Source: Eggerthellaceae bacterium (GTDB lineage Bacteria; Actinomycetota; Coriobacteriia; Coriobacteriales; Eggerthellaceae). Taken from it: 38,167 nucleotides of DNA. Under the pieces are notes generated by a model, which had not been told where the DNA came from, did not search any database, and saw only the letters and a list, made by a program, of their open reading frames with translations. A program made the translations under genes and the position numbers. The stretch covers positions 1 to 38,167 of the forward strand of contig JALCHN010000016.1 of NCBI GenBank assembly GCA_022644775.1. The letters are read 5' to 3'. Of the stretch, positions 5,958 through 17,395 are shown piece after piece; the first letter of the stretch is position 1; each line of letters opens with the position of its first letter.

Positions 5958-8900
5958 ATGATTTCGGCGCGCGAGCTACGCAACAACTGTCGCACGGCGA
6001 CCTACCAGCGGGGACGCGACATCGCCGACCGCCCCTCGTGCATCATCGCGCCCGTGGCCGAAGAGACCCAGGTGCGCGGGGTGCGCCGACTGCGCCTTGC
6101 CGCCCGCATGCGCGGCACCGACCCCGGCGACGTCTACGAAACCGAAGTCTTCATCGACCCCGTCGAAGGCGAGATCCTCGATTACGACTGCACCTGCCCG
6201 GCTTCCGACAACTTCAGCGGCATGTGCAAGCACGCGGTGGGCCTGGTGATGCGCTACAACGACGCGCCGCGCTCCTTCCGCGACGCGAGCGGCGCCCGCG
6301 CCCGCCAGACGTCGGGCGCCCTGTCGCTGATCATGGACCGCACGTCGGCCGGCCCCCGCCAGGCGCAGGCCAACGTCGATCTGGACATGCAGCTCAGCTA
6401 CTACTTCGACCAGTGGAAGCTCCAGTTCAAGATTGCCGGCCCCAAGGGCTCCTACGTGCTGAAGAACATCGGCGACTTTTTGGACCACATGCGCGCGGGC
6501 GACTACGTGTCCTACGGCAAGAAGCTCGCCTTCACCCACGTGCCGGGCAACCTCACGCCGCGGGCGCGCAAGATTTGGCGCTTCCTCGACGCGGCCGTCG
6601 AGGCGCGCCGCGAGCTCGCGCCGCTCGCTTCGTCGAGCTACAGCTACGGCTACAGCTACGGCTATTCGAATCCGGTGCGCGTGGGGCGCGAGATGCAGCT
6701 CGCCAATGCGGAACTGCTCGATCTGTTCGAAATCTTCGAAGGCGAGCAGATCGAAATCGTTGACGAAGAGCAGGCGATCGAAGCCCAGGGCGCCTACCTG
6801 ATGCGCACGGGCCGTTCGCGCGGGCGCCTGGCACGCGACATGGACCGCGTGGCCGTCACGGTGCGCGAAGGCAAGCCCGACCTGGGGATTTCCATCGCCG
6901 CGACCGACGGCGGCTTCGAAGTGGGCGCGCCCGAACCCGCCCGCATCGTTTCCGACGGCCAGCGCCTGGCCCTGTGGCGGGGCGACACCCTGTGGCTCTG
7001 CCCGCCTTCGTTCGCGTCGGCCCGCAAGGTGCTCGAAGCCCTCTACGGCGGCGACGGCGCGCTCTTCGTGTCGACGGCCGACGCCCCGCGCTTCGCGGCG
7101 ACCGTGCTGCCGCTCTTCGAAGACGTGCTCGGCGCCCAGGCGCCCGAAGAGCTCGACGCGCTCAAGCCGGTGCCCTGCGAGCTCGCCTTCTACCTCGACC
7201 GCACGCGCACGGCGGTGGTGTGCGACGCGCGCGCCGTCTACGGGGGCCAAAGCTTCCACGTGCTCGCCCCCATCACCCGCGAGGACGCTCACGTGCGCGA
7301 CCCCGAACAGGAAGCGGTGGGCGCCGAAGCGGTGCGCAGCTACTTTTCGGAATTCGCGGTGCCCAAGGGCGAGGCCGGCCGCACGGTGGGCACGATCGCG
7401 ATCGACGACGCCGACGCGATAGGCAACCTGCTCTTCGGCGGCTTGGCGGCCTTCCGCGAAGCGGGCCAGGTCTACACCACGCCGGCCTTCGACAAGCTGC
7501 TCTTCGACGGCCATCCCACCGTGCAGACGGGACTTTCCATTTCGGGCGACCTCATCAACTTGGACATTTCGGCCGACGAGCTCGACCCCGAAGAGGTCGC
7601 GCGCATCCTGGACAGCTACCGGCTGCGTCGCCGCTACCATCGCCTGAAGAACGGCGCCTTCCTCAACGTGGGCGACATGGACCTGGCCCAGCTCGACCGG
7701 CTTTCCAGCGACCTGGGTCTCTCCGGGCGCCAGCTGGGCGCAGGCGAGGTGGAACTGCCCCTCTACGAGGCCTTCTACCTGAAGGACCGCCTGCCCGGCG
7801 CCGACCGTGACGCGAGTTTCACCGCCTACCTGGACCGGTTCGACGAAGAGCGCGCCAAAAAACGCGTGCCGCCCGTCTCGCTTGCCAGCGTGCTGCGTCC
7901 CTACCAGGTGGAAGGCTTCGCCTGGCTGTCGCTGCTCGCGAGCTGCGGGTTCGGCGGAATCCTGGCCGACGAGATGGGCTTGGGCAAATCGGTGCAGCTG
8001 ATCAGCTGGCTGGTGAGCTGCGCCGACGAGGCCCACGAGCCCAGCCTGATCGTGTGCCCGGCGTCGTTGGTGTACAACTGGGCGGCCGAATTCGAGCGGT
8101 TCGCCCCGCAGATGCGCGTTGCCGCGCTCGTCGGCGCCAAGGCCCATCGGGCGGCGGAGCGGGCACGCGCGGCTGCCGGCGAGGTCGACGTGATGATCAC
8201 GAGCTACGACATCCTGCGCATCGACGTGGAAGATTTCGCGAAGATGAAGCTCTTCAGCTGCACGCTCGACGAGGCCCAGTACATCAAGAACCAGTCGACC
8301 AAGGTGGCCAAGGCCGCCAAGCGGGTGCGCGCCGAGCACCGGTTCGCGCTCACGGGCACGCCGGTGGAAAACCGCCCGAGCGAGCTGTGGAGCATCTTCG
8401 ACTTTTTGATGCCGGGGCTGTTAGGGTCGGCGATGCATTTCCGCGAACGGTTCGAGATCCCCGTGCTGGGCAACGACGAGGAAGCGCAGAAGAGCCTGCA
8501 GGCTCTGGTGGGGCCCTTCATCCTGCGGCGCCTGAAGGCCAACGTGCTCACCGATTTGCCCGACAAGATGGAATCGCGCGTGTACGCCCAGATGACGGGC
8601 CCGCAGGCCAAGGCCTACCAGGCGAGCGAGCAGCACCTGCGCGACGCGTTGAACGCCCAGAAGCGCGAATCGGCGTCGCGGTCGCACGAGCCCGGCAGCA
8701 ACGAGATGAGCAAGGTGCAGGTGCTCGCGCAGCTCACGCGCCTGCGACAGCTCTGCCTGGACCCGGCGCTCGTGTTCGAAAACTACAAGGGCGGCGCCGC
8801 CAAGCTCGACACGATCGTCGACCTGGTGGGCGAAGGCATCGAATCGGGACAGAAGATTCTGGTGTTCTCCCAGTTCACGAGCTTCTTGAAGCGCATCGCC

Positions 8901-10423: not shown

Positions 10424-13400
10424 TTACTTGTCTTCGGAATTGCAGCGTGCGTACACGATTGGCAGCAGGTCGTTGTTCATGACGCGCAGATACGCATCGG
10501 GATTCTTGCTGAACGTATCGTACATATCGGTGCTGTCGGAAACGATGGCCGCAAGTGCGAGATTCACCACGTCGCCGAAAATGGCCCGCAAATCGCTCAT
10601 GCTGTTGGTGCGGGCTTTGGCGACGAAATCCTCGTCTTCGCAGATCTTGTCGGCGCATGCCTTGATAATTTTGTCTGCTTCGGTCCAATCTGCATCGAAT
10701 TCGCTGTTCAAGTGCTCGATGAGCACGCTCAGGCGCTCTTCTTCCTCTTCTTTGGCCACGCCCGCGTTCGCTCCGCCGTTATGCAGATCGGTGCTTTCAA
10801 GCTTGATGGACTCCGTGCCCTTGTCCTCGATGCGCAGGTATTCAAGCTCCACCTTGTCGCGCAGGTCGGGCGTGCTGCCCGTCTCGAGGAAGAGCTTCTT
10901 TACCAGGTAGCCCGCATAGACGAAGAAGCGGTGCAGGTCCTCGTCGCCTAGGCTGATCATCTGCGTGATGAACGAATACGAGCGCAGGAACTTGCGCAAC
11001 AGGGCCTTGAACTCGCGCTTGGGCGTGTCGTCCAAATCGCGCCACCGGTCGACGGCGGGCTGCAGTTTCGGCTCGATTTTGCTAAGCGCTTCTTCGGGAT
11101 TTTGCGTGTCGAAGTAGATGGTCGCAACGGCTTCGACTTCCGACTCTTCGTACACGTAATAGCCGTCCAGGCGTTCCTTCAGGTTGTAGATCACATCGGG
11201 GTCGGTCGCGGCATCGAGCTGCGTGGTCTCGTAGTAATCGGAAAAGCTGGCGCGAATGGCGTCCCACGTATTGGCGAAATCCAAACACGAAGGTGCGCTT
11301 GCCGGGGATGGTGCACGTGCGGTTCAAGCGGCTGAGCGTCTGCACGGCCGCCACGCCCGTGAGCATCTTGTCCACGTACATCGCGCAGAGTTTGGGCTGG
11401 TCGAAGCCCGTTTGGAACTTGTTGGCGCACACGATGATGCGCTTGCTGTCGGTGTTGAAGACGTCTGCCGTTTGCGTTTCGGCGACGCCGTTCAGCTTGG
11501 CTTCGGTGATTTCCTTCCCGTCGACTTCGAGCTTTCCCGAAAACGCCACCATTACCTCGCAGGCGTAGTGCTGCTCCTTGATGTAGCTGGTCATGGCAAG
11601 GTAGAGCCGGTAGGCCATCGGCCGGCTCCAGGTCACGACCATCGCTTTCGACTTGCCACCCAAAACGCCTTCCACGTCGTTCATGAAATGCTCGACGATG
11701 ATTTGCGCTTTCTGCTCGACCATCTTCGGACTCCAGTCGACGATGCTCATAAGGGCGCGGTTGGCCTTCATCTCCTTGTACTTGGGGTCGTCGGCGATGG
11801 TTTTCACCAGCTTGAAGTAGCTTTCGAAGCAGGTGTAGTTTTCGAGCACGTCCAGGATGAAGCCCTCTTCGATGGCCTGCTTCATGCTGTACAGATGGAA
11901 GGGGCGCGGAATGAGAATGCCGTTCGCGTCTCGCTTGCACAGCTCGTCGCGCGTGCCGAAGACCTCGAGCGTCGCGGGCTTGGGGGTTGCCGTGAACGCG
12001 AAGAAGCTGAGGTTGGGAATCGTCCCCTGCGCCTTCATCTCCTTGGCGAGCTCGTCTTCGTCGTCCCACGGTTCGTCGGGGTCGAGGTCGCGGTCGATCA
12101 AGGCGAGCTTCATCTTCGCGTTGGCCTTGCCGCTCTGCGAACTATGGGCTTCGTCGATGATGACGGCGAACTTTCGGCCGCTCACCCTGGTTTCGCTGCA
12201 GATGTAGGGGAACTTTTGAATGGTGCTCGTGATGATCTGCGATCCGGAATTCAGCGCTTCGCGCAGGCCTGCCGATCCGTCCTTTTCGGTCACGCAGACG
12301 ACGACGCCCCTCGTGTGGTCCACCGATTCGATGGTTTTGGAAAGCTGCGTGTCGAGGTTGCGCCGGTCGGTGAGTATGACCACGGTGTCGAACACGGGGT
12401 TGTCGGCATCGTCGTGAAGCGATTGCAGGTGGTGGGCCAACCAGGCGATGGTGTTCGACTTGCCCGATCCGGCCGAGTGCTGAATGAGGTAGCTTTTGCC
12501 GGCGCCGTTTGCCTTGGCGTCCGCCACGAGCTTGCGCACGGCATCGAGCTGGTGGTAACGCGGGAAGATGATCTTCTTCATCGTGTGCTCGTCGTCGTAT
12601 TCGACGCGCACGAACCGCTGGATGATGTCGAGCAGGCTGTCGGTAGCAAGGATGTTGCGGTAGAGGTATTCAGTGCGGTACCCGTGGGGGTTGGGCGGGT
12701 TGCCGGCTCCGTTCTTCCCGTTGCCCTTGTTGAACGGCATGAAATACGATTTCCCGTTTGCGAGCCAGGTGCACATCTCCACCGTTTCGGAATCGACGGC
12801 GAAGTGTACAATGGCCCTGCGGTTGGGCTTGAAGAGCAGCTCTTTGGGGCTGCGGCGCTGCTTGTATTCCTTCACGGCATGGTCGGTGCGCTGGCCGGAC
12901 AGGTTGTTCTTCAGCTCCATCGTGACCACGGGAATCCCGTTGAGGAAAAGCACCACGTCGACCGAATTGTTCAGGTCGTCGGGCAACGTTCCGTAGCGGA
13001 GCTGCCGCACCACTTCGAAACGGTTGGCCCGATAGTGCTTCAACGTGTCGGGGTTCTTATCGTTTGCCGGGCGGAAGTAGCACAGATTGAACTGCGCTCC
13101 CGGCGCCATTTTGATGCCATGGCGGAGCACGTTGATTACGCCGCCCCGTTCGTCGTGCGGTTCGAGCTCGTCGGTAAGGCGCTTCAGGAAGCGGTCGGTC
13201 GCATGCGCACCGTAGAGCTTTTCGATCTTGGCCCATTCCTGCGGTTGCGTTTCGCGCACGAACCCGATGAGGGAGTCCACCTTCAGGGCGAGCTTGCGGT
13301 CGTAGTCGGCTTGCCCCTCCGTGTTGTTGGCGAAGGTCGTCCATCCGACGTTGCCGAGCATGGCCGTGACGTCGTTTTCGAATTGCTTTTCATCGAGGTT

Positions 13401-13463
13401 CGGCGTAGTGGGGGAATAGTATTCCATCGTTTCGCTCGATGCGGTGTCGCGAGTGTCTTTCAT
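10424..13463 (-). pseudogene. hsdR: Type I restriction enzyme R subunit, frameshifted
   Basis: This is the DNA translocase/endonuclease subunit of a type I restriction system. The N-terminal nuclease domain shows a PD-(D/E)xK site (Asp169, Glu183-x-Lys185 in MELKNN). Walker A is HSAGSGKS with Lys335, the DEAH box is at 437-440, and FTATPKP follows. After Val726 (TFV) the frame is lost by one extra T in a TTT run (minus strand; AAA at 11283-11285 on the plus strand). Without it the text reads TFVLDFANTWDAIRASFSDYYE and continues as a normal HsdR C-terminus to 10424. Repaired length is 1012 residues, the family norm. As it stands, translation runs about 68 codons out of frame to a stop near 11082. 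The start ATG has CAGGAGA five bases upstream. A sequencing error is possible. Confidence 0.9.
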
Positions 13464-13477
13464 GGCGTCTCCTGTTG

Positions 13478-13741
13478 CTACGAGCGGCTGGAAAGCCCGT
13501 TGGCTGCAAGCTGGTCGAAGTCGGGCGTCCAAAGCGCGAGGGCAAGCGATCCAACGAGTTCCGAACAGCTCTCTTCGAGCTTGTGACTTGTCTGCGCTAG
13601 CGTTCTGTTGTCGAACACTCTCCGACCAGTTCCGCCAAACATGGCTTTGATATTATTGATGAAATCGTGTCGGACGGTTTTCGTGCTGTCGCCCAATGCT
13701 ATGTATTTGGCCTTCTTCTGCGATATTGAGTTATTTGCCAT
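13478..13741 (-). CDS. Small basic hypothetical protein in the RM operon
   Basis: This 87-residue protein starts with ATG directly after the TAG of the upstream gene (TAGATG), with GGTGGAG before it. It ends 14 bases before hsdR. The N-terminal half is basic and polar (SISQKKAKYIALGDSTKTVRHDFINNIKAMFGGTGRR), the C-terminal half helical with LEESCSELVGSLALALWTPDF. There is no signal peptide or known motif that I recognise. The coupling on both sides suggests it is made with the RM proteins, as a modifier of HsdR or a separate defence or immunity peptide. Real-gene status rests on the tight spacing and the ribosome binding site. Confidence 0.62.
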   Translation of the reverse strand: MANNSISQKKAKYIALGDSTKTVRHDFINNIKAMFGGTGRRVFDNRTLAQTSHKLEESCSELVGSLALALWTPDFDQLAANGLSSRS

Positions 13742-14335
13742 CTATAACTCCACCTTTGTCCATGCTTCTTGAAGCTGTAGCTGACGTTCTGCCCAGTTGC
13801 CTTCAAAAAACATAAGCGATGTCTCGTGGAGTTTGTCACGTTCGTCATAGTAGGAAATGCGTATCTCGTCGAATGATGCTTCGGCTAGATTGTTCGCGTT
13901 TTGGAAACTTGTGAAGAAGAAGTTCTCTTTCTTAATGCTCTTTGGCAAGGCAACGCAGGAATACGAGCTATTCTCATCGCCAAGCGCAAAGCTGTCCCGA
14001 TACTGAATTTCGCCGTTATGCTTATGCTCATGAATGATGCCCTCAGTTTGGTGCATACGCCTAACCAATGAGCCGTTTTTCCGTAGGGCAAGTGAAATGT
14101 CGCGTACGACTCTTGTGGTATTGCTTGAATTCCGAATCTCGAGTTCAAGTGGAAGAGCAAATGAAATCCTACCTTCGGTTTTTGAGAACCCCCAATATGT
14201 AAGGAATTGGGAATTAATGCGATAGTAGAAGTTAAGCTTCCCCCAGCGGTCCATTAGTCTTGTTGCAATCTGAATGCCCAAGCTAGAAAGGAAACCTATC
14301 AAGCCTCCTATTAGTGTGTTGATGTCTGGCTCCAT
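13742..14335 (-). CDS. Membrane-anchored hypothetical protein in the RM operon
   Basis: This 197-residue protein has one probable N-terminal membrane helix (NTLIGGLIGFLSSLGIQIATRL, residues 6-27). A soluble mostly beta-rich part follows, with LELEIRNSSNTTRVVRDISLALRKNGS near residue 65 and RISYYDERDKLHETSLMFF near 155. This strand-rich pattern with a preceding membrane helix resembles a cytoplasmic or sensory Ig-like domain, but I recognise no named family. The ATG lies four bases from the hsdS stop, after CAGGGG. The region is visibly AT-richer than its neighbours and uses codons such as AAT, TTT and AGA that are rare elsewhere here, pointing to recent acquisition. The function is unknown; a role in phage defence is inferred from location only. 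Confidence 0.7.
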   Translation of the reverse strand: MEPDINTLIGGLIGFLSSLGIQIATRLMDRWGKLNFYYRINSQFLTYWGFSKTEGRISFALPLELEIRNSSNTTRVVRDISLALRKNGSLVRRMHQTEGIIHEHKHNGEIQYRDSFALGDENSSYSCVALPKSIKKENFFFTSFQNANNLAEASFDEIRISYYDERDKLHETSLMFFEGNWAERQLQLQEAWTKVEL

Positions 14336-14339
14336 TGCA

Positions 14340-15632
14340 TTACACCCCTGGAACCTTGAATTTGCCCGTGACGGCTTCGGATATGAGAGACTTACGGTAT
14401 TCGCGCAGCTTGTCGGCCATGGTCTGTTTGTCTGTGATGAGCCCGTCGATTTCGGCGGTCTTGGTGTCGAGGTAAGCGACGATTCTGTTCTGTTCTTCTA
14501 TTGGTGCAATAACGAAAGGCGTTGTTGCTAGAATTCTGGTGTTTAGATTCTGGAGCGTTGTCCCTACACTCTTGAGCTCTAGGTAGCTTTTTACAAAGTC
14601 ACATCGAAGGTAATAGACAGCGAATTTTGGAACTACTGTTTCGTATAGCTCCATTTCTATACTTCCCGTGCCACAGAAAAGCCCGTCATGTTCGATGAGA
14701 GCGCAACGCCCCATTTCGCCGCGTCTTCCAAAGATAATTTCATTTCTTTTCATTAAGTGCTGGGAAAGCGCATTCGCGAGTTTCCTACAAATTCGGTTGC
14801 ATGTCGAAGGGACGATCTTCCCGTCAATAATGTTCGCGGGATTGACGACGCAGATCTCGCCGTCATCTGAATAATCTTTAGAGTGGAGCTGGCTACCGAA
14901 CGGTCCAGTTTGAATTGTCTTAATTGATTTTCCTAGGTTTGCACAGTGCCAGTTCTTGGGGATCTCGCCAATCCATTTGATGCCGGAGTCCTTCATGGGC
15001 ACGGTTGGGTCGAGGCCTTTGGTGACTGCTTCGGAGATGACCGATTTGCGGTACTCCTGTAGCAGCTCGACTTCTCGCTCGCAGTCTGCAATGAGCCCGT
15101 CGATCTTGCCAGTCTTGGCGTCAAGATAGTCGGCAATTGCTTGCTGTTCAGAGAATGGCGGGAAGGATACAAGAATGTTCTTCATCCGCGGCCAGTTGGT
15201 TGACCAAAGGTCGTCGACAATGCCGGTTCCCTGGCGATAATATTCGTCAGCAAATCCTTCACTACTGAAAAGGTAGGAATAGTATCGCCCGTCCATTGCA
15301 TGTTCGTTTTTCGGTGCAAGGACATTTGATATTAGCGTCACCGACCCGTCGAAGGCAGATATCCCACATGCCCCTCGCCTGTCTGAGCGGCTGTTTATTA
15401 CAAAATCCCCAGTTTTCACGAGCTTTCTGTTGTCGTTGTCTTGCGACTTGGCGGCCGTTTCGAGTTGCGGCACTACGCCCTGCATTGTCACTGAAAGTGG
15501 AGGGTAATCGCGATCGCTAACTTTCTCGTTTCTTGCGTCGTAGAGAGCAGATATCCTACGTACATTCCATCCCTCAGGAATCTCCCCGATCCATTCCACG
15601 CCCGAATCCTTGTACGCTTCGTACCGCTCCAT
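14340..15632 (-). CDS. hsdS: Type I restriction-modification specificity subunit
   Basis: This 430-residue protein sets the DNA target of the type I complex. It has two half-repeats. Each starts with a WIGEIP motif (GVEWIGEIPEGWN near residue 12, GIKWIGEIPKNWH near residue 219) and a variable target-recognition domain. Each ends in a conserved helix (EQQAIADYLDAKTGKIDGLI and EQNRIVAYLDTKTAEIDGLI) followed by a LLQEYRKSVISEAVT or KLREYRKSLISEAVT spacer. The two helices set the gap between half-sites. It starts two bases after the hsdM stop. The recognition domains are AT-richer than the conserved parts, as is usual for swapped domains. The target sequence cannot be predicted from this. Confidence 0.93.
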   Translation of the reverse strand: MERYEAYKDSGVEWIGEIPEGWNVRRISALYDARNEKVSDRDYPPLSVTMQGVVPQLETAAKSQDNDNRKLVKTGDFVINSRSDRRGACGISAFDGSVTLISNVLAPKNEHAMDGRYYSYLFSSEGFADEYYRQGTGIVDDLWSTNWPRMKNILVSFPPFSEQQAIADYLDAKTGKIDGLIADCEREVELLQEYRKSVISEAVTKGLDPTVPMKDSGIKWIGEIPKNWHCANLGKSIKTIQTGPFGSQLHSKDYSDDGEICVVNPANIIDGKIVPSTCNRICRKLANALSQHLMKRNEIIFGRRGEMGRCALIEHDGLFCGTGSIEMELYETVVPKFAVYYLRCDFVKSYLELKSVGTTLQNLNTRILATTPFVIAPIEEQNRIVAYLDTKTAEIDGLITDKQTMADKLREYRKSLISEAVTGKFKVPGV

Positions 15633-15634
15633 GG

Positions 15635-17395
15635 TTAGAGCCCTGCCTTTTCCAGCTTCTGGGCGATATCCGCTTCAAGGTCGCGAATTTCGGCAAGGAT
15701 TTCCTGGCTCGGTCGCAGGGGCGTGTATTCGTAGAAGTAACGGGTGAACGGAATCTCGTAGCCCACTACGCCTCCGTCTCTCAGCTCGAGCAGCTGCCCC
15801 TTCTTCTGCTTGCGCGGCTCGATCCAGGCGTCGGGCGCGTAGGGCAGTACCTCGCGGGCCATGTACTCGTTCACATCTTCTGTGAGCGGGATGTTTTCGG
15901 TGTCGTTCTTGTCTTTGTCGGCGATCAACTTGCCGCGGGCGGTCGTGAGCGGATTGCCTTCTTCGTCGAGCGTCGGGCGTCGCACGTCGACGGTGATGTA
16001 GCCGAACTCGTCTTTGTCGAACACCTTCGAAAGCTTCGGATCGGCGTCTTCGAAGGCCTGGTACATCCCTACGATCTGTTCGATTTGATCGTCGGTGAAT
16101 TCGTTGCGCTTGCTGCCCAGGCTTTTCCGCATCTTGCTGTAGATGCCGTTTGCGTTGATGAGCTGCACTTTGCCCTTGCGGCGCTCTTCCTTGGTGTTGT
16201 CGAGCACCCATATATAGGTAGCGATGCCCGTGTTGAAGAAGAAGTCGTTGGGCATGGCCACGATGGCGTCCACAAGGTCGTGCTGCAGCAGGTAGCGGCG
16301 CACTTCGCTTTCGCCCGATCCCGCCTGGCCGGTGAACAGGGGGCTGCCGTTCAGGAACACGGCAACGCGGCCGCCGCCTTGGTCGGCGGGGCGCATTTTG
16401 GCCACCATGTGCTGCACGAAGAGCAGCTGGCCGTCGGAAATGCGGGGCAGGCCCGCGCCGAAGCGGCCGGCGAAGCCCAGTTCGTCGTGCTCCTTGCGCA
16501 CGGCCGCCTGCGATTTCTTCCAGTCGACCCCGTAGGGCGGGTTCGAAATCTGGTAGCCGAAGGTTTCCCCGGGCATCTGGTCGTCGGCGAGCGTGTCGCC
16601 TAAGTGCACGTTGGCCACGTTGCCGCCCTTGAGGATGGTGTCGGACTTGCAGATCGCATACGACTGCGCGTTAATTTCCTGCGCATAGGTGACCACCGTC
16701 GCCTGCGGGTTGATTTGGGCAACGCGGTCGGCGAACACGGTGAGCGCGCCGCCGGTTCCCGCGCAGGGGTCGCAGACCTTCACGATACGGCTTGGCTGGG
16801 TGAGGTCGTCCATTTCGCCGGTGACGAGCAGCTCGGCGGCGAGGCGCAAGCCGTCGCGTGGGGAGAAGTGCTCGCCGGCCGTTTCGTTGGACACTTCGGA
16901 AAAGCGCCTGATCAGCTCTTCGTAGATATCGCCCATGTCGGCGTTGCTGATGGATGCGGGGCTCAGGTCGATACGCGGGTCGCAGAATCGTTCGACTACC
17001 AGGAAGAGCAGATCGTTGTCGGCAAGGTCTTTGATGCGGTCGAAGATCTTGAACTTGTCGAAGATGTCGGCGATTTCGGGGGAGAAGCAGGTGACGTATT
17101 TGGTGAGGTTCTCGCGAATGGCGTCGGGGTCATTCAGAAGGTCGTTCATCGTGAATTCGCTCGTGTTGTAGAAGTCGACGCCCGCCGCGCGCTTGAGCAT
17201 CGTGTCGCGCAGGGCGTCGGGAAGCTGCTTGGCGGCGGTGTCGAGCACGGCCTGTTTGGTGGGCTCCAGCACCACGTCGAGACGGCGCATTACGGTGAAG
17301 GGAAGGATGATGTCGCCGTATTCGTGCTGCTTGAAGCTCGATCGAAGAAGGTCGGCCGTTCCCCAAATAAAGCTCGAGATTTCCGAATGATTCAT
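15635..17395 (-). CDS. hsdM: Type I restriction-modification DNA methyltransferase subunit
   Basis: This 586-residue protein is the N6-adenine methyltransferase of the complex. It has an N-terminal helical HsdM_N domain (SSFIWGTADLLRSSFKQHEYGDIILPFTVMRRLD). The AdoMet motif I is VCDPCAGTGG (Asp209-Gly215), and the catalytic motif IV is NPPYG at residues 285-289, followed by VDWKK. The C-terminus carries the long helical arm that docks onto HsdS. It is somewhat longer than the E. coli K-12 subunit (529 aa). It is the first gene of the minus-strand operon and precedes hsdS by two bases. The ATG at 17395 has GAAAGGG upstream. With hsdR frameshifted, HsdM and HsdS could still work as a modification-only pair. 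Confidence 0.95.
   Translation of the reverse strand: MNHSEISSFIWGTADLLRSSFKQHEYGDIILPFTVMRRLDVVLEPTKQAVLDTAAKQLPDALRDTMLKRAAGVDFYNTSEFTMNDLLNDPDAIRENLTKYVTCFSPEIADIFDKFKIFDRIKDLADNDLLFLVVERFCDPRIDLSPASISNADMGDIYEELIRRFSEVSNETAGEHFSPRDGLRLAAELLVTGEMDDLTQPSRIVKVCDPCAGTGGALTVFADRVAQINPQATVVTYAQEINAQSYAICKSDTILKGGNVANVHLGDTLADDQMPGETFGYQISNPPYGVDWKKSQAAVRKEHDELGFAGRFGAGLPRISDGQLLFVQHMVAKMRPADQGGGRVAVFLNGSPLFTGQAGSGESEVRRYLLQHDLVDAIVAMPNDFFFNTGIATYIWVLDNTKEERRKGKVQLINANGIYSKMRKSLGSKRNEFTDDQIEQIVGMYQAFEDADPKLSKVFDKDEFGYITVDVRRPTLDEEGNPLTTARGKLIADKDKNDTENIPLTEDVNEYMAREVLPYAPDAWIEPRKQKKGQLLELRDGGVVGYEIPFTRYFYEYTPLRPSQEILAEIRDLEADIAQKLEKAGL

Follow-up and report, generated by a model that had tools for sequence, protein, structure and literature searches.

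A predicted membrane protein of an unannotated family is probable defense cargo between hsdS and hsdR in a type I restriction-modification locus of an Eggerthellaceae bacterium

What are the two small open reading frames (ORFs) that separate hsdS from hsdR in a type I restriction-modification (RM) locus of an Eggerthellaceae bacterium, and do they belong together? The locus lies on contig JALCHN010000016.1 (assembly GCA_022644775.1), within the 38,167-nucleotide stretch of DNA that was analyzed as a whole and is called the window here; the genome amounts to 1.96 Mb in 56 contigs. On the minus strand, the genes run in the order hsdM, hsdS, X, ORF2, and hsdR. Four bases separate hsdS from X (14336-14339), there is no gap between X and ORF2, which meet in the motif TAGATG (13739-13744), and 14 bases lie between ORF2 and hsdR (13464-13477). 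A preliminary description of this DNA had reported the same order and junctions, and the coordinates bear them out (Table 1). It had also called the first gene AT-richer than its surroundings, which is correct: the GC content of X is 44.9%, compared with 60.6% in hsdM, 58.6% in hsdR, and 64.5% in the whole window. Scans of the window for tRNAs and Rfam families gave no match. X sits among the hsd genes, on the same strand and with tight spacing, as cargo would. We propose that X is probably a membrane-anchored component of an abortive-infection response, carried as exchangeable cargo in the slot between hsdS and hsdR, and that ORF2 is the seam.

Table 1. Features of the type I RM locus in the window
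Feature	Position	Strand	Description
hsdM	15635-17395	minus	Pfam HsdM; 84-89% amino acid identity to orthologues in G486 and G441
hsdS	14340-15632	minus	Pfam HsdS; last ~145 bp about 80% identical to orthologous locus
X (= ORF1, P0001)	13742-14335	minus	197 aa; predicted membrane-anchored beta-sandwich of an unnamed, defense-associated family
Predicted transmembrane helix of X	14261-14317	minus	Residues 7-25, hydrophobic stretch
ORF2	13478-13741	minus	87 aa
ORF2 codons 1-53	13583-13741	minus	HsdR N-terminus-like fragment, GC 46.5%
ORF2 codons 54-87 + stop	13478-13582	minus	gmrSD gene tail, GC 61.0%
hsdR first reading frame (nuclease + helicase part)	11082-13463	minus	Pfam HsdR; ATG at 13463
hsdR remainder, other frame	10424-11284	minus	Orthologues unbroken at corresponding site

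X looks foreign both in its composition (44.9% versus 58 to 61% GC) and in its distribution, in that orthologous loci carry gmrSD, other cargo, or no cargo. Two genomes, G486 and G441, share the window's locus, with amino acid identities of 84 to 89% for HsdM and 79 to 81% for HsdR, and in both of them (loci L015 and L016) a gene for a GmrSD type IV restriction enzyme lies between hsdS and hsdR. HsdR of the window's kind was found in 14 of 137 genomes of the window's taxonomic family, at 15 places; 14 of these were inspected, and the second place in G346 was left out. Cargo between hsdS and hsdR is present in 6 of the 14 loci (X in two, GmrSD in two, AbiJ_NTD4 in one, and SLFN_AlbA_2 in one), and a YhcG_C nuclease lies between hsdM and hsdS in another interval of 2 of the 14. 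The hsdS genes have a common tail (the last ~20 codons), which could plausibly act as a homology arm; in the window's hsdS, the last ~145 bp are ~80% identical to the orthologous locus. The slot itself is already in print: the available part of a study of the RRDM island of EPEC places DarTG2 between hsdS and hsdR and describes this position as a potential recombination hotspot for defense systems (PMC12255303). X shares this slot with DarTG2 but differs from what that part describes: it is a membrane protein whose family has no name, its host belongs to the Coriobacteriales, and it lies beside a visible exchange scar.

The interval between hsdM and hsdS is a second cargo slot, occupied by YhcG/DUF1016 PDDEXK nuclease genes in the two type I loci just counted, which are related to the window's (L063:8034-9164 and L066:7610-8950).

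The composition of ORF2, a feature overlooked in the preliminary description, changes partway along the frame from a GC content close to that of X to one close to that of hsdR (Table 1). Over about 23 aligned residues, the tail of ORF2 is 74 to 78% identical to the C terminus of the GmrSD that precedes hsdR in G486 and G441, and the DNA of the tail is 78% identical to L016 over 63 bp. The front of ORF2 matched hsdR of G486, right after gmrSD, at an E value of 0.035 in 1 of 296 genomes. Three matches at 0.046 in the same search (G667, G678, and G693) were taken as chance; the one inspected by eye falls in a thioesterase-like ORF. Scored against a profile of the HsdR N terminus built from seven sequences, the window excluded, the first 59 residues of ORF2 reached 14.3 bits, compared with a best score of 12.1 in 20,000 shuffles. 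The single search match is weak, and the HsdR reading of the front draws on where this match lies, on the shuffle test, and on the change in GC content. No Pfam domain was found above the cut-off in the 87 residues, which contain neither the nuclease and helicase domains of HsdR nor GmrSD_N or GmrSD_C. Searches of 138 genomes of the window's taxonomic family and of plasmids returned no relative of ORF2 as a unit, the two matches in those genomes spanning the tail alone. Because no relative of the whole of ORF2 was found, its halves match the ends of HsdR and GmrSD, and the GC content breaks between them, we conclude from the sequence that ORF2 is probably a junction ORF, or scar, rather than a separate gene.

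We postulate that X replaced the gmrSD gene that occupies the slot in relatives and that ORF2 is the right-hand seam of this replacement. The incoming low-GC DNA probably ran from hsdS through X into the first part of a foreign hsdR, which would have been fused, with the frame kept, to the final codons of the gmrSD already present, an order of events that we infer from the present arrangement. GmrSD fills the same slot in G486 and G441, and its tail survives here as the end of ORF2; only about 30 codons are left, with no nuclease domain.

An alternative hypothesis is that X and ORF2 form a genuine accessory pair, for example, a toxin with a small antidote, and the preliminary description had suggested looking for the same pair in other type I RM loci. 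The start of ORF2 abuts the stop of X with a GGAG a few bases upstream, and its frame stays open for 87 codons at operon-like spacing, all of which would suit a pair. However, ORF2 was found beside no X relative at any locus, it has no relative as a unit, its halves match the ends of HsdR and GmrSD with a GC break between them, and the operon-like spacing is explained by the spacing of X and hsdR in a donor such as G437, in which X is followed directly by hsdR. At L014, hsdR comes directly after X, with no ORF2 between. We consider a functional pair very improbable. The earlier idea of co-acquired defense or immunity genes in an RM operon therefore stands for X, for which 17 of 18 loci are defense associated, and falls for ORF2 as a junction ORF; the further remark that the second protein is basic applies only mildly, with 11 K/R versus 8 D/E counted from the translation.

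G441 contains a 49-aa hybrid ORF (L016:9439-9588, minus strand) between gmrSD and hsdR, in which an hsdR-like start is fused to an hsdS tail. It is another scar of exchange at the hsdS-hsdR slot, independent of ORF2, and such exchanges therefore recur. Cargo swaps leave small hybrid ORFs of a sort that annotation pipelines would call genes, and the window shows the aftermath of one such swap and reveals the occupants of the slot.

X is a genuine gene, and its family has no annotation. At E values up to 1, Pfam, PADLOC, and NCBIfam returned no family for X; the 16 aligned members of its family yielded no PADLOC match and, from Pfam and NCBIfam, only single weak, unrelated ones. A single-sequence search of 396 genomes of the phylum found relatives in 2, and a profile search of 396 genomes of the class found them in 5 (the window's own genome included in both counts); others came from nine Enterococcus plasmids, seven contig-database loci, and one viral contig. 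Eight of 395 genomes of the Streptococcus sobrinus order gave matches, one of which was taken as chance: this match, in G794 (E = 2e-4), sits in an ORF judged by eye to be PRD-type antiterminator-like.

Once duplicates were merged, the family comprised 18 distinct loci. Loci of one genome were counted once (L001/L003, L002/L007/L011, L008/L012/L017, L009/L013/L018, L010/L014, and L021/L025, among others), as were the nine near-identical Enterococcus plasmids. L022, a truncated copy with an internal stop, and L041, whose match spans profile positions 35 to 193 only, were left out of the alignment but kept among the 18. X is 58 to 61% identical to the Olsenella-type copies, 24 to 33% identical to Firmicutes copies, and 21 to 24% identical to the G437 copy. 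Among the three Olsenella-type copies, dN/dS is 0.18 to 0.22, which indicates that the family is under purifying selection; the comparison of the window's X with these copies is saturated. The tree of the 16 members is poorly resolved and gives no count of the exchanges between RM and AbiTii settings. A phage family of unknown function, phrog_23349, matched X at 2.2e-4 and 4 of the 16 members (best, 2.9e-6). Annotated phage records held no match to X or to its Enterococcus, G437, and G861 relatives; viral contigs gave no match in a single-sequence scan and the same single locus in two profile scans.

The preliminary description had assigned the first protein one membrane helix and a strand-rich domain and had called for a structure prediction. 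The AlphaFold models of X (pLDDT 74) and of an S. sobrinus relative (pLDDT 83) agree with that assignment and with each other: one long helix is followed by an immunoglobulin (Ig)-like beta-sandwich. The single hydrophobic stretch of X, residues 7 to 25, lies within a modeled helix of residues 3 to 31 and shows small-xxx-small spacing from residues 10, 14, and 20 onward. One such stretch near the N terminus, with this spacing, occurs in all 16 aligned members. In X, the flanks of the helix have a net charge of -2 on the N side and +3 on the C side; the 15 residues C-terminal of the helix are net positive in 15 of the 16 members and have a net charge of 0 in L020, and in L037, as translated, the N side is likewise positive. 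The net positive charge after the helix suggests that the C-terminal domain is cytoplasmic.

A PDB sequence search with X gave nothing useful. Its structural matches (Foldseek/VIA) are generic Ig-, FN3-, or arrestin-like sandwiches, among them TRAP, TMEM106B, Af_0446, FixG, ApaG, and Spo0M, and the viral ones are unnamed phage proteins. The best Z score was 8.4, and values of 7 to 8 are usual without kinship. We drew no function from these matches. No catalytic motif, active site, pore, or toxin motif is evident in X. Effectors of CBASS of the Cap15 type combine a membrane part with a beta-rich soluble domain, a ligand-binding barrel. X resembles them in pairing a membrane helix with a beta-rich soluble domain but has one helix and an Ig-like sandwich instead of the barrel. 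Neither Cap15 nor a similar TM-beta effector family matched X in Pfam at E values up to 1, no Cap15 structure was among the structural matches listed, and no CD-NTase was found among the scanned neighbors of the X loci, which are part of all neighbors.

Within the 6-kb flanks of each X locus, where the sequence reaches that far, recognized defense genes lie near X at 17 of the 18 loci, a count that includes two of the three Olsenella-type loci in which the partner was recognized by eye only. The exception is the truncated copy, L022, with no defense gene nearby. AbiTii, confirmed by Pfam at every one, lies directly upstream of X at eight loci (L006, L020, L023, L037, L039, L040, L041, and L042). 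Type I RM genes lie within 6 kb at five (the window, L014, L021, L023, and L038), L023 being counted in both groups; by a rough estimate that assumes one locus per 2 Mb, about 1% of random 12-kb stretches would have a type I locus near. The preliminary description had named a lack of homologues in any other RM locus as evidence against its idea, and these five loci, the window included, show that such homologues exist. X lies between hsdS and hsdR at L014, as in the window, between an AbiP2-type reverse transcriptase gene and hsdS at L021, and between hsdS and hsdM at L038, where HerA, SIR2, and Abi_2 genes surround it. At L024, an HATPase_c_4 (SLFN-type) gene and AbiH are near X. In three Olsenella-type genomes, X follows a large protein, which matched BnzB at 2e-30 in the one copy scanned (L011).

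The tie also shows from the AbiTii side. Among 227 genomes of the Lactobacillales, AbiTii occurs in four, and all four are X genomes in which X comes directly after AbiTii. On the assumption that X is present in 5 or 6 of these genomes, and with kinship ignored, the probability of such co-occurrence by chance is about 1e-7. AbiT (AbiTi/AbiTii) was described in Lactococcus lactis. At 8 of the 18 loci, an X relative and AbiTii form a tight two-gene unit, but X differs from AbiTi in length, and the window has no AbiTii; none was found above the cut-off in the window's genome either. By sequence, X is not AbiTi: none of the 16 members matched the AbiTi model PDLC02333 (114 positions) at E values up to 1. 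In G845, G861, and G996, the best PDLC02333 matches fall elsewhere (3/3), and controls match too. One AbiTi homologue, from C. catus, is described in the accessible part of one study as toxic and not rescued by its own AbiTii (PMC3985639); we do not lean on this observation because X fails the AbiTi model. AbiT is poorly understood, and X, as a regular neighbor of stand-alone AbiTii in the Lactobacillales examined, is a testable partner.

We propose that the N-terminal helix would anchor X in the inner membrane, with the Ig-like sandwich facing the cytoplasm. In its commonest setting, X would be translated together with AbiTii; elsewhere, its co-translated partner would be a BnzB-like protein, a DRT reverse transcriptase, or the product of a type I RM gene. 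The partner would sense infection, and X may act on the membrane side, as the effector or docking part by which the infected cell is stopped. In other bacteria, AbiTii is fused to HEPN domains, according to the part of a survey available to us (PMC3710099), and these fusions place X in the effector position. They resemble the AbiTii-X arrangement in coupling an AbiTii domain to a second part, but X is a separate membrane beta-sandwich protein and not an RNase. In the literature searched, no paper other than PMC3710099 and PMC3985639 was found on how AbiTi and AbiTii act, and papers on Bunzi yielded nothing. The lack of a toxin motif, the several partners, and the lack of AbiTii in the window's genome count against X as an abortive effector.

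X could instead be a regulator or inhibitor of the neighboring gene product, that is, an anchor that restrains AbiTii, HsdS/HsdR, or another partner or that recruits the partner to where phage DNA enters. In favor of this reading, the partners of X are several and different, X has no enzyme-like motif, Ig-like sandwiches are typical of binding modules, and hsdS adjoins X at four loci (the window, L014, L021, and L038). One anchor would nevertheless have to recognize each of such different partners, and in the AbiTii-HEPN fusions, as far as the available part of that survey describes them, the effector lies downstream, where X does (PMC3710099). We regard a regulatory role as rather unlikely.

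Could X instead be a functionless passenger? A single frameshift, also overlooked in the preliminary description, splits hsdR near 11270 to 11290, and the gene continues in another frame (Table 1). Five relatives (L015, L016, L063, L066, and L067) are unsplit at this site. Hitchhiking in a decaying type I system, with hsdR split and gmrSD gone, would agree with these intact orthologues, with ORF2 as debris, and with the missing AbiTii. Yet the window's X has its full length and retains the near-invariant residues of its family, members of the family lie inside type I RM loci in other genomes too, and the frameshift may be an assembly error. A real frameshift would cripple the RM enzyme in this genome and leave X on its own; with hsdR broken, the whole locus may be decaying. 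We think it unlikely, somewhat more so than a regulatory role, that X is such a passenger.

Abortive-infection cargo, the reading that we favor for X, has a broader form that we offer tentatively and think doubtful: X may found a family of interchangeable membrane effectors, in which AbiTii, BnzB-like proteins, an AbiP2-type reverse transcriptase, and type I RM systems separately recruited one Ig-like module. If so, X in an RM operon would be a fail-safe that halts the cell once restriction fails. As far as our literature and database searches show, what is new is the X family, along with its link to AbiTii and the exchange scar.

Several X loci have further features. At L019, an AbiTii remnant of about 50 residues (7826-7975) lies just upstream of the X relative, and an AAA_13 (RloC/PrrC-like) gene then follows. 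L038 (27-11700) is a type I RM locus with nested SIR2, HerA, X, Abi_2, and two hsdS-like genes. The partner at L011 (10091-12349) is a 752-aa glycine-rich protein that adjoins X and matches PADLOC BnzB and PDC-M09A; the Olsenella copies of this BnzB-like partner are 474-aa ORFs, whose front part may be lost or in another frame. The one Enterococcus plasmid inspected, which encodes AbiTii and X (L006:1-18486), also carries optrA and erm(A), so that the defense pair lies beside resistance genes.
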